From contig NZ_CP132957.1 in the NCBI RefSeq assembly GCF_030863805.1, positions 1,426,001 through 1,490,000 of the forward strand: a stretch of 64,000 nucleotides of DNA. The letters are read 5' to 3'. Below, piece by piece: positions 14,210 to 28,427 of this stretch. The notes below the pieces were generated by a model. The model was not told where the DNA came from. It ran no database searches and saw only the letters and a program-made list of their open reading frames with translations. The translations under genes and the position numbers were made by a program. This DNA comes from Kineothrix sp. MB12-C1 (lineage in GTDB: Bacteria > Bacillota > Clostridia > Lachnospirales > Lachnospiraceae). Position 1 is the first letter of the stretch, and every line of letters starts with the position of its first letter.

Positions 14210-14279
14210 AAATCTTCCTCATCTTTCTATATTTATCATTTTCATGATTGATTACTTTTTATCCTCCGTTATACCGTTT

Positions 14280-14415
14280 TTGTTTTGCGGTTACCCGCAT
14301 ATTTGTGTCGGTATATCTCGCACCGGAGTTTGTACGGGAAGGTATCCGCCGAATTTTCGATAACCTTCCATCCTCGTTAACCTGTGCTTTTCCGGCCACA
14401 GGTGCATGGCGCTAG
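14280..14415 (-). ncRNA. glmS ribozyme-riboswitch
   Basis: The minus strand carries the conserved core of the glucosamine-6-phosphate-activated ribozyme: the cleavage-site segment AGCGCC (complement of 14408-14413), with cleavage expected between the A at 14413 and the G at 14412. It is followed by a P2 hairpin, TTAACGAGGATGGAAGG, then TTATCGAAAATTCGGCGGAT, and the P3/P4 stems ending near 14280. The ribozyme sits 70 nt before the glmS start. Cleavage lets RNase J degrade the downstream mRNA when the product is abundant. The 3' boundary is approximate. Confidence 0.93.
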
Positions 14416-14522
14416 ATGGGAAAACGTGAGAAATTACTGCAACAGTCGATACGTACCAAGTTTTGCGTATCTGAAATAAATGCAATGTCATATTCATTTT
14501 TCAAGGTGCGAATTACTGTGGA

Positions 14523-16046: not shown

Positions 16047-16164
16047 CTCTTATCGTTCGACCTGCCATTTCCGGCAGTTTACTCGCTCAGGCAGGCACCT
16101 TCCTCATTAGGGGTTGCCGTGGCTTCTCAGGTCCTCTGTACCTCCACCACTCTGAATAAGAGAT
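16047..16164 (-). promoter_or_regulatory. SAM-I (S-box) riboswitch
   Basis: The minus strand has the S-box layout: P1 arm CTCTTAT (16156-16162 region), GAGGTACAGAGGACCTG, the conserved GCCACGGCAACC, AAGGTGC, a GC-rich P4 hairpin, and the closing GAACGATAAGAG. Binding of S-adenosylmethionine stabilises P1 and lets the terminator at 15996-16026 form, reducing metK transcription. Position and gene fit established S-box biology. Confidence 0.95.
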
Positions 16165-22653: not shown

Positions 22654-23250
22654 TTAGAAAACCCCCATGACATGAGCAATTAAGAGTCCCATATTTGCAA
22701 GAGATATAATAAGAGTCGTAACGGCAAGTGCAAAAATGCCTTTGCTCTTTTTCCGGTTAGCCTCATTTATTGTATTCACGCTCGCTAACGCTTCTGCACC
22801 GAATCCCATAAGCGCTCGCGTCTGTTTCTCTATTTCTTCCACAAGTACCGCTTGTACATTGCGGTATACTTTCACATTTTCTTTGTGTACAAAGTCATCC
22901 GCTTGTTTAAAAAGTTCTTCCAACTTTGTCTCTATTTCAATTTTCTTCTCTTCTTCACCTTTTGCCGACTGAATTTTCATAATACATTCTTCGGTCAGCT
23001 TCTCGATTCCCTGATTGCTTTCTGAAAAAAGATTATCAATCTGAACCCCAATACTCTGAAACAGCTCCTGAAGACGCTGTTCACTTTCTACATTTTTCAA
23101 ATTCAACTTCCGCATCTCCTGCATGCAAGCATTGTATTCTGCCACCTGCAACTGAAGACGCTCAATCTGCGCTGCATCTGCTGCAGAATTCGCCCGAATC
23201 ACTTCCTGTGAACTTAACTTCTGAGCAATTTTATCCATAAAATTATCCAT
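22654..23250 (-). CDS. Coiled-coil protein with C-terminal membrane anchor
   Basis: A 198-residue protein of unknown function. ATG at 23250 is selected because GGGAGG lies 8 nt upstream; the longer frame from 23268 would begin inside that site. Residues about 1-160 are charged and rich in Gln, Glu and Lys with heptad-like spacing (IERLQLQVAEYNACMQEMRKL; KGEEEKKIEIETKLEELF), predicting long coiled coils. A single hydrophobic helix occupies about 177-195 (FALAVTTLIISLANMGLLIA) near the C terminus, a tail-anchor layout with the bulk in the cytosol. It forms a two-gene unit with the flavin reductase. No recognised domain was identified. Confidence 0.8.
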   Translation of the reverse strand: MDNFMDKIAQKLSSQEVIRANSAADAAQIERLQLQVAEYNACMQEMRKLNLKNVESEQRLQELFQSIGVQIDNLFSESNQGIEKLTEECIMKIQSAKGEEEKKIEIETKLEELFKQADDFVHKENVKVYRNVQAVLVEEIEKQTRALMGFGAEALASVNTINEANRKKSKGIFALAVTTLIISLANMGLLIAHVMGVF

Positions 23251-23414
23251 TCGTTTTCCTCCCGCCATGGTTTTTTCCCTTTTACCAACCGCTTATCCTT
23301 CTCAATATATCACGTTTTATATCTTATCATTTTTTTTTTTTATTTACAACCAGTTCGCTTCTTTTGTGCAATATGTTATGTTTTTTCATTCTATCTTTTC
23401 CCGGTTTGTAAAAA

Positions 23415-23468
23415 TTAACGTTATTTTCACACGTCGTTCATAGTTTATTCATAACTAATTGATATACT
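23415..23468 (+). promoter_or_regulatory. Array of five PhoP/PhoB-type boxes with -10 element
   Basis: Hexamers TTAACG, TTCACA, TTCATA, TTCATA and TTGATA begin at 23415, 23426, 23437, 23448 and 23459, each exactly 11 nt after the last. This is the spacing of phosphate-response regulator boxes (TT-A/C-ACA-N5 repeats). A -10 element TATACT (23463-23468) overlaps the last box. No -35 consensus is present, as expected for an activator-dependent promoter. It points to the right, toward no protein gene. Confidence 0.7.
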
Positions 23469-23469
23469 A

Positions 23470-23575
23470 AGTTCATAGCAAACGAGTGATATCGTAATGT
23501 TTTCATTACACATATAGATAAATTTTTTCATAATAGCCCAGGTGTCGAAAGATGTCTGGGCACTCCTCATTTTAC
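23470..23575 (+). ncRNA. Candidate phosphate-regulated small RNA
   Basis: Downstream of the box array there is no open frame, but two hairpins: GTAATG/CATTAC with a TTTT loop (23494-23509), and a 11-bp stem at 23536-23561 (GCCCAGGTGTC and GATGTCTGGGC) closed by a GAAA tetraloop. Three pairs of the second stem are G-U wobbles only if the plus strand is transcribed, which supports a plus-strand RNA. The 3' end is uncertain: it could stop here or run to the terminator at 23776-23827. This is an inference; it could be the remnant of a lost Pho gene. Confidence 0.45.
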
Positions 23576-23589
23576 GGACAAACTCTTCA

Positions 23590-23772
23590 AATTGTAATAG
23601 GAGCACTTTACTATTAGGATTCGGATATCAAAAGCCTCTCGACCAACTTGGCTTCGTCAATTTGCACTCATATAATTTCTTTCCAAAGTGATAAGAATAT
23701 GGTTTGATGACGTAAATGGTGCAAATTGATGAAATATATTGCTACAAAGGCTTTTGGCAACTGGAGTCTGAT
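23590..23772. repeat. Structured repeat, short copy
   Basis: It begins with a TAATAG/CTATTA hairpin (23596-23615 region), followed by CAAAAGCCT (23629-23637) pairing with AGGCTTTTG at about 23748-23756, and TCGTCAATTTGCAC near 23653-23666 pairing with GTGCAAATTGATGAAA at 23719-23734. The same order of blocks occurs at 63715-64000, where the interior is about 170 nt longer. This copy looks like an internal-deletion form. Confidence 0.75.
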
Positions 23773-23775
23773 TAT

Positions 23776-23827
23776 AAAAACACTTCATATCCAGAGCATA
23801 TTATCGCCCATGATATGAAGTGTTTTT
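23776..23827. terminator. Bidirectional terminator after the alarmone synthetase
   Basis: A perfect 16-bp stem, 23776-23791 with 23812-23827 (AAAAACACTTCATATC type), has T-runs on both strands. It lies 20 nt past the minus-strand synthetase stop and would also end any plus-strand transcript from the Pho promoter. Confidence 0.92.
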
Positions 23828-23847
23828 ATTAGAACTATTTTAATAAC

Positions 23848-24483
23848 TTATTGTTCGCTCAGCTTCTGTACCTTTTCATTCAAAAGAAGCATTCTGGCAT
23901 CCAGATCGGAAACCATCTTAGCACATTCCACCAATTCTTCTTTAATGGAGTTCGGGGCATTCCCTTCAAATTTATAATGAATCTTGTGCTCCAGGCTGGC
24001 CCAGAAGTCCATGGCAACCGTTCGTATCTGAATCTCTACCTTCGTATCTACGATTCGGTCGGAAAGGTATACAGGAACTGTCGCAAGCATATGATAACTC
24101 TTATATCCGCTCACTTTAGGACTCTTAATATAATCCTTCACCGAAATAATCTTAATATCACTTTGGTTAGTGATCATATCTGCTATTTCATAGATATCGG
24201 AACTAAAGGAACAAATCACCCTGATTCCCGCTATATCATTTACATACTTTACCATATTTTCTATGGTAGATTCATAACCATTCTTTTTTAACTTTTTAAC
24301 AATACTTTCTGATGTCTTTATTCTCGATTTAATATGCTCAATCGGATTATATCTATGTACATGCTGAAATTCATCATTCAGTATTTCCAATTTAGTAGAT
24401 ATCTGCTTGAGTGCCGAATTATAAATTAAAATGACCTCTTTCCAATTATCTACATCACTATCTCTTTCTACTCTCAGTTCCAT
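23848..24483 (-). CDS. Small alarmone synthetase (RelQ/RelP-type GTP pyrophosphokinase)
   Basis: A 211-residue stand-alone synthetase that moves pyrophosphate from ATP to GDP or GTP to make (p)ppGpp. The RelA/SpoT synthetase fold is shown by DIAGIRVICSF, DYIKSPKVSGYKSYHML (the G-loop/substrate segment) and VEIQIRTVAMDFWASLEHKIHYK. No HD hydrolase, TGS or ACT domain is present, so it is of the RelP/RelQ class regulated by transcription or allostery. An extended -10 (TGGTATAAT, 24578-24583) lies about 95 nt upstream. It has its own terminator and is monocistronic. RelQ versus RelP cannot be separated by eye. Confidence 0.93.
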   Translation of the reverse strand: MELRVERDSDVDNWKEVILIYNSALKQISTKLEILNDEFQHVHRYNPIEHIKSRIKTSESIVKKLKKNGYESTIENMVKYVNDIAGIRVICSFSSDIYEIADMITNQSDIKIISVKDYIKSPKVSGYKSYHMLATVPVYLSDRIVDTKVEIQIRTVAMDFWASLEHKIHYKFEGNAPNSIKEELVECAKMVSDLDARMLLLNEKVQKLSEQ

Positions 24484-28313: not shown

Positions 28314-28398
28314 TTACGATTGCTATGTAAAAACAGAAGTCATCAGCTTAATAAAGCGGTTTTGGCTATGCCAAGGGAGAACTTCATTCCCTCTCCAT
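28272..28398 (-). promoter_or_regulatory. Candidate Na+-sensing (DUF1646/Na+-I-like) riboswitch
   Basis: The 5' part of the minus-strand leader folds into a GGAGA/TCTCC hairpin holding GGGAATGAAGTTC, then a TTGGC-ATA-GCCAA hairpin and AAACCGC (28355-28398). Next, 28340-28349 and 28326-28336 can pair with 28272-28281 and 28285-28295, a 21-bp antiterminator that excludes the terminator at 28262-28313. Layout and gene partner agree with what I remember of the Na+-I class, associated with kefB-like antiporters. The class name is from memory; the switch architecture itself is directly visible. Confidence 0.6.
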
Positions 28399-28427
28399 AA
28401 TATACATCATATCAAAAATACATTCAA
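28399..28427 (-). promoter_or_regulatory. Promoter of the antiporter riboswitch transcript
   Basis: TTGAAT (28422-28427), a 17-nt spacer and TATATT (28399-28404) would place the transcript start just at the first base pair of the aptamer hairpin. Confidence 0.6.

Follow-up and report, generated by a model that had tools for sequence, protein, structure and literature searches.

A candidate trans-acting small RNA family of Lachnospiraceae with a direct-repeat promoter and arms complementary to translation start regions

Relation to described small RNAs

Among described systems the streptococcal csRNAs come closest to the locus presented here. They are reported to be driven by CiaR through an 11-nt direct repeat (TTTAAG-N5-TTTAAG) ahead of the -10 element, and to combine in one molecule unpaired stretches directed against the Shine-Dalgarno sequence and the AUG (PMC3091779). 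Both traits recur in the small RNA (sRNA) that we predict in the window, that is, the whole stretch of 64,000 nucleotides that was analysed: a putative response-regulator repeat of 11 nt, and anti-Shine-Dalgarno and anti-AUG sequences in a single RNA. The boxes are however TTTACA/TTCATA and do not match the CiaR repeat NTTAAG-N5-TTTAAG; the bacterial family is another one, a covarying stem has the anti-AUG arm on its 5' side and the anti-Shine-Dalgarno arm on its 3' side, AAA AAA is included in the complementarity, and neither strand of the core has an Rfam match. Rfam includes a csRNA family. We conclude that the sRNA would work like the csRNAs, but that it is not one of them, because of the other box, the other lineage, the arms placed around a stem and the lack of an Rfam match.

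The LisR-dependent LhrC of Listeria is reported to be induced by a two-component system under envelope stress and to exist in several copies. It has CU-rich anti-Shine-Dalgarno parts in loops, and its targets include lipoproteins. Two-component induction is also predicted here, whereas mostly one copy per genome is found and the arms lie on either side of the stem. GcvB of enterobacteria reaches many ABC-transporter binding-protein mRNAs through one invariant unpaired region, and the same kind of reach is predicted for the sRNA; its regulator is nevertheless another, its predicted pairing spans both the Shine-Dalgarno sequence and the start codon with a stem in between, and a relation in sequence was judged by Rfam only, which gave no match. 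The YclJ box of Bacillus subtilis (TTCATANTTTNTTCATANTTT) differs hardly at all, 11-nt spacing included, from the two promoter-proximal boxes, a likeness of motif only.

In the open-access literature searched we found no description of this RNA and none of a base-pairing sRNA in Lachnospiraceae; the start-site map of Clostridium phytofermentans reports an unnamed non-coding unit behind cphy2658 (PMC5171806). In Rfam 15 no family matches the sRNA region at the gathering threshold, and at E<=5 neither strand of the core gave a match, the weak matches of the region falling on a stem-loop at 23766-23860 alone. A known RNA family was rejected on the ground that the core is without a match in Rfam. 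We regard the sRNA as a new family; its gene and its type of promoter are almost certain by sequence comparison.

Comparison among relatives shows an OmpR-type direct-repeat promoter, a covarying plus-strand stem and two nearly invariant arms predicted to be single-stranded (Table 1). The explanation that we hold to be the probable one, with some reserve, is a response-regulator-driven, trans-acting sRNA of the Lachnospiraceae that would clamp the Shine-Dalgarno sequence and AUG-AAA-AAA of mRNAs. For the Lachnospiraceae, a main gut family, the locus is a strong candidate, in which the promoter is defined, the core covaries and the pairing arms are explicit.

Table 1. Coordinates of the predicted sRNA, its promoter and adjoining elements in the window.
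Feature	Position	Strand	Basis or remark
Divergent upstream gene	22654..23268	-	encodes 204 aa with a hydrophobic stretch at the C terminus
Four 11-nt direct-repeat boxes TTAACG, TTCACA, TTCATA, TTCATA	23415..23453	+	predicted response-regulator site; three-box score
Extended -10 TTGATATACT	23459..23468	+	TGnTAnnnT at fixed spacing in relatives
Predicted sRNA	23475..23590	+	conservation in relatives and CM match 23514-23575; 23590 is a guess
Hairpin 1 GUAAUG-UUUU-CAUUAC	23494..23509	+	variable; absent from some relatives
5' pairing arm AUUUUUUCAUAAUA, complement of UAUUAUGAAAAAAU (start codon and AAA AAA)	23522..23535	+	arm conservation; cofolding with start regions
Hairpin 2 GCCCAGGUGUC-GAAA-GAUGUCUGGGC	23536..23561	+	covarying stem
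3' pairing arm ACUCCUCAUUUUA, complement of Shine-Dalgarno GAGGAG	23562..23574	+	CTCC behind the stem; terminator overlap in relatives
Repeat element resembling a MITE	23593..23770		directly 3' of the RNA
Perfect 18-bp inverted repeat	23774..23829		

Promoter, RNA gene and conservation

The preliminary description of this DNA had read five boxes and a -10 element. All the hexamers are where it placed them (TTAACG 23415-23420, TTCACA 23426-23431, TTCATA 23437-23442, TTCATA 23448-23453 and TTGATA 23459-23464), as is the -10 TATACT (23463-23468); the fifth box, however, has to be given up, since TTGATA overlaps the -10 and reads TTGnTATACT in relatives, and what remains are four boxes and an extended -10. 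Across relatives the series reads TTAAC, TTTACA, TTCATA, TTCATA with 11-nt spacing. The three-box score is 15 or more (of 18) at 119 of the 127 loci, a value that 13 of 2540 shuffles attain, and two TTCAYA boxes stand at fixed spacing from a -10 in 98 of the 127; at this spacing TAnnnT was found in 98 and TGnTAnnnT in 74. With up to three mismatches the four-box pattern occurs in the 64 kb at this site only, in two overlapping registers (0.00 expected, 100 shuffles), and is thus no product of chance. Over the whole 3.94-Mb genome, three boxes followed by TATANT (<=3 mismatches) were found here with 0 mismatches and at a single further site with 3; a control search with the pattern reversed gave one place. 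A search of 12 genomes with boxes and -10 (<=2 mismatches) recovered the sRNA in 11 and yielded 8 other sites. If the class-wide reading of start sites set out below is true, the promoter would be nearly dedicated to the sRNA.

The 5' end of the sRNA would lie about 7 nt past the -10. Both hairpins of the preliminary description are present in this genome; conservation extends to hairpin 2 but not to hairpin 1, which is missing in some relatives (L019, L020). Hairpin 2 has the GAAA loop and the three plus-strand G-U pairs that had been attributed to it, at the same positions, and its loop varies among relatives. Because of these G-U pairs we take the plus strand as the RNA strand. An RNA or start site on the minus strand was rejected, as there the three G-U pairs become A-C mismatches and the ATGAAAAAATT frame is not kept. 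The earlier statement that no open reading frame is present holds in part: short ORFs of 53 aa (minus) and 49 aa (plus) do overlap the RNA, yet the frames are not conserved among the relatives compared, in which those from the minus-strand ATGAAAAAATT differ in length (5 to 28 aa) and sequence; a protein-coding explanation was rejected for this reason.

Of 98 genomes, 28, its own included, share at least a part of the intergenic DNA, the conserved part being approximately window 23316-23583; the matches in two of these genomes (G031 and G013) miss the RNA core. In all 20 loci that were fetched, GATAAATTTTTTCATAATAGCC is followed by a variable stem and then by GGGCACTCCTC. A covariance model (CM) for the 62-nt core, built from these 20 loci, matches 113 of 397 genomes of the family Lachnospiraceae and 6 of 291 genomes of the class, all six in Lachnospiraceae, both searches having strict filters that make misses possible. 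An exact-pattern scan of named genomes gave at least 117 stretches. Among the 80 matches listed, the majority carry the name Lachnospiraceae or that of a genus within it (Roseburia, Butyrivibrio, Eisenbergiella tayi, Robinsoniella, Parablautia and Acetatifactor are named), some just bacterium or Clostridia, and two metagenome bins are labelled Bacillus sp. and Muribaculaceae, perhaps misnamed.

In alignments of 68 and 59 matches fitted to the model, which favours the stem, 99.4% and 98.9% of the stem is paired and both-side changes occur in 76 cells (16.0+/-3.6 in shuffles) and 152 cells (33.0+/-5.8 in shuffles), respectively. The MAFFT alignment of the 20 loci gave 99.0% paired and 13 both-side changes against 3.6. 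The preliminary description had proposed to look in aligned relatives for boxes and both hairpins conserved with covariation; boxes and hairpin 2 are kept and the stem covaries in more than 100 genomes. The arms are nearly invariant: the 5' arm reads UUUUUCAUAAU (TTTTTCATAAT as DNA) in 123 of 127 loci and the 3' arm has CUCC (CTCC) behind the stem in 125, counts obtained with a model built from sequences with both arms, so that strongly changed copies would escape.

A second, more divergent copy occurs in a few genomes (G155, G446, G290, G354 and G306 in the family search, G664 in the class search). Six divergent copies (L114, L116, L115, L117, L124 and L132), five of them second copies in their genomes, have altered arms, e.g. 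TCCTCCC for CTCCTC, and L114 and L116 are without boxes by score. It is possible that the divergent copies are paralogues with other regulators.

Predicted pairing with translation starts

The two arms, 5' UUUUUUCAUAAUA and 3' CUCCUCAU, are antisense, in antiparallel order, to 5'-AUGAGGAG-(about 5-9 nt)-AUGAAAAAA-3'. The reverse complement of the 5' arm, UAUUAUGAAAAAAU, is a start followed by two lysine codons, and that of the 3' arm, AUGAGGAGU, is a Shine-Dalgarno sequence; as long as the stem stays folded, both arms thus match a single translation start, GAGGAG...UAUUAUGAAAAAA, in their order and at a normal distance between Shine-Dalgarno sequence and AUG. When candidates were folded as two strands, the stem was kept and both arms were paired, which gives a three-way junction. 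We propose that the RNA would cover the Shine-Dalgarno sequence and the start codon of mRNAs beginning AUG-AAA-AAA and block their translation, with the stem protruding from the duplex as the third arm of the junction.

The mean pairing energy of 444 start regions was -8.1 kcal/mol, against -4.7 for 400 random 50-mers. Four AUGAAAAAA start regions, which were our own choice, gave a mean of -17.6 kcal/mol against -6.7+/-1.7 for 30 arm-shuffled controls, none of which was as strong, and general start regions gave -7.6 against -6.0+/-1.1, with 3 of 30 shuffles as good. Since shuffled arms come close on general start regions, the specificity of the modelled pairing appears to lie in AUGAAAAAA starts; AUGAAAAAA is common at signal peptides anyway.

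Many of the predicted targets would be signal-peptide lipoproteins and ABC-transporter binding proteins, with amino-acid, methionine, sulfate and phosphate (PstS) binding proteins among the good scorers. Exact 14-nt matches at gene starts include those of an SBP_bac_3 amino-acid binding protein, a sulfate-binding protein and a DUF1002 protein, and the match at the SBP_bac_3 protein recurs, by N-terminal sequence, in four genomes of the genus (G000, G007, G009 and G014). A MetQ-type lipoprotein, found with a looser pattern, has a pairing energy of -18.5. The pstS start regions, paired with the sRNA of the window, rank within the best 5% of the 444 in 10 of 12 genomes, and in 4 of the 12 they pair better than any of the 444; two of the pstS regions (L317 and L318) pair poorly.

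No universal perfect target was found in the 25 sRNA-bearing genomes, in 7 of which the sRNA gene itself is the sole exact 14-nt complement, and a single perfect target was rejected on the ground of these 7 without a non-self exact match. By a crude rule, with 39 of 40 non-self matches read, 24 of 39 matches in sRNA-bearing genomes lie at start codons against 10 of 26 in genomes lacking the sRNA, a difference that is not significant (Fisher p=0.08). The 26 exact-match loci of the latter genomes gave 11 weak model matches (best E=0.048) and no hidden copies of the sRNA, the stem missing in the 8 alignments shown.

The invariance of both arms without one universal target, together with a hairpin that is followed by a pyrimidine CUCCUC tail, could also point to a structured protein-binding or decoy RNA, one that might, for instance, imitate the 3' end of 16S with its hairpin and CUCC; the complementarity to start sites would then be incidental. 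We hold this to be improbable, as the 5' arm complements AUGAAAAAA in exactly the antiparallel order required for joint pairing, the loop of the stem is variable as noted above, and CUCC is unable to pair with the like sequence of 16S. Pairing is, from the models, the likely mechanism of the sRNA. A more tentative extension, to which we give somewhat less than even chances, is that of a family-wide gut and rumen sRNA recognising a whole class of start sites and, upon activation of one membrane-kinase two-component system, lowering secreted lipoproteins and binding proteins (PstS among them) as a class. If this is true, nutrient-binding lipoproteins would come, as a class, under the post-transcriptional control of a single two-component signal, by a junction-type pairing over ribosome-binding site and start codon.

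Regulator and genomic neighbourhood

That an OmpR/PhoB-type regulator drives the sRNA is well supported by the promoter sequences. A phosphorylated response regulator would induce the RNA, and our candidate is a conserved PhoB/RegX3-like regulator of 225 aa (best solved relative RegX3; C1:3809363-3810037 in this genome), in whose promoter similar boxes stand equally far from the -10; the alternative inducer is the Pho regulator linked to pst. The candidate gene is present in all 28 genomes compared, 6 of which are apparently without the sRNA by the family CM search. Upstream of it TTCACA-N5-(A/T)ACATA was found in 12 of the 28 genomes (11 of 22 with the sRNA, 1 of 6 without; compare, for example, TTCACAGTTTTTACATATTTATTGGTTATACT with TTCATAGTTTGTTCATAAATAATTGCTATACT) and was not seen in 16, one of them (L439) unreadable. 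In the box model, which gives the sRNA promoter 39.4, the scores of these sites range from 1.5 to 25.9, with 11.5 for this genome, and L415 and L416 alone lie well over background, so the likeness of the two promoters is real in layout and weak in most genomes. In this genome (L446 3864-7736; C1:3809363-3813235) a gene that looks, by eye, like an alpha-glucosidase gene lies between the candidate regulator and a histidine-kinase gene.

The preliminary description had left the choice between a Pho-induced RNA and a promoter remaining from a lost pst gene. The remnant is very unlikely and was rejected: 98 of 127 loci have boxes and -10 ahead of the RNA, and of the 8 further box sites in the 12 genomes none stands, by eye, before a pst gene, an arrangement that had been named as evidence for it. 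Three of these sites lie ahead of response-regulator genes, two of them orthologous, and our candidate is one of these regulators.

As to a Pho-induced RNA, the small-RNA gene and the OmpR/PhoB-type promoter hold good, but the pst loci score at background. Under Pho control the pst-linked regulator/kinase pair would drive the same sRNA, giving feedback on pstS and other transporters in phosphate limitation, a reading that we regard as rather unlikely. Like Pho promoters, the locus has 11-nt direct repeats ahead of the -10; by eye, repeats of T[A/T]CATA-like units with this period occur in both sRNA and pst promoters, the upstream sRNA boxes TTAAC/TTTACA resemble the pst units, and the pstS promoters have repeats of their own, of TTTACA/TTACAT type, which L309, L310 and L312-L314 show best. 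The good pairing of the pstS start regions would suit such feedback, and PhoB is the nearest NCBIfam model of both candidate regulators, at 217.0 and 215.7 bits, below the cut-off of 296.2. However, the site type of the sRNA promoter was not found in the 12 pst loci, which stay at background both in the three-box model trained on sRNA promoters (best 7.1 against 29.6 for the sRNA promoter) and in the model of boxes and -10 (best 9.4 against 39.4), the background counts of the latter including the sRNA promoters of 80 loci. Both kinds of promoter may still have a looser unit in common. The three-box model does pick the pst repeat region as the best site in 2 of the 12 loci, L317 and L318, at background scores of -1.8 and 3.7; the best site of the model of boxes and -10 lies before pstS in opposite orientation in L320, L316 and L314 and 349 nt before pstS in L317, again with background scores. 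The regulator that shares boxes and -10 spacing in its promoter is, moreover, another gene, as the pst operon, whose genes other than pstS we name presumptively from position, has its own regulator/kinase pair downstream. Because the pst loci are at background, similar boxes stand at another regulator and pst has its own pair, Pho control of the sRNA is unproven and somewhat disfavoured.

Neighbourhoods were compared in 207 loci pooled from two collections, in which some genomes may count twice. The ORF of 80 aa or more that lies nearest downstream runs opposite to the sRNA in 177 loci and in the same direction in 23, and the sRNA is a standalone gene with its own promoter in varied neighbourhoods, not a leader. 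The 204-aa upstream protein, for which a Pfam search gave no match, adjoins it in 107 loci. Closeness to a (p)ppGpp synthetase gene, which the preliminary description had thought suggestive, is common but not universal: by tblastn with the protein of the window, some loci being cut short, a RelA/SpoT-domain gene (PF04607) was found within 600 nt in 119 loci and not in 88. As it was not found in these 88, the alarmone-synthetase neighbour seems not to be essential. In 71 loci neither the synthetase nor the upstream membrane-protein gene was found, and at loci without this pair the neighbours vary.

The terminator search found no terminator in this genome. By our own criterion, 94 of the 207 loci have a terminator-like element within 190 nt, and in 25 a terminator-like hairpin starts in the CUCC/CCUC stretch (e.g. 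CCUCAUUUUAUGGGG-UUUU), the 3' arm of these relatives doubling as part of the 5' arm of the terminator. It may be that the repeat element at 23593 replaced a terminator, hence its absence in this genome. Partial copies of this element lie from window 63717 onward and at C1:2399118-2399381, 3283178 and 3616702, with inner inverted repeats TTCGTCAATTTGCAC/GTGCAAATTGATGAA.

With no terminator found here and the relQ-type synthetase gene downstream and convergent in 115 of 207 loci, sometimes across a gap of less than 30 nt, the transcript might be supposed to act in cis, running into relQ as an antisense RNA. This is very improbable, since relQ was not found nearby in 88 loci, the conserved arms match start regions and are not part of relQ, and a terminator stands at the 3' arm in 25 loci; in this genome, furthermore, the repeat element and the 18-bp inverted repeat separate the RNA from relQ.

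Elsewhere in the window, the Rfam motif TwoAYGGAY, listed as cis-regulatory, matches at 423-586 on the plus strand with 85 bits, and three Rfam riboswitches were found on the minus strand: glmS (14260-14424), SAM (16047-16162) and fluoride (28327-28400).
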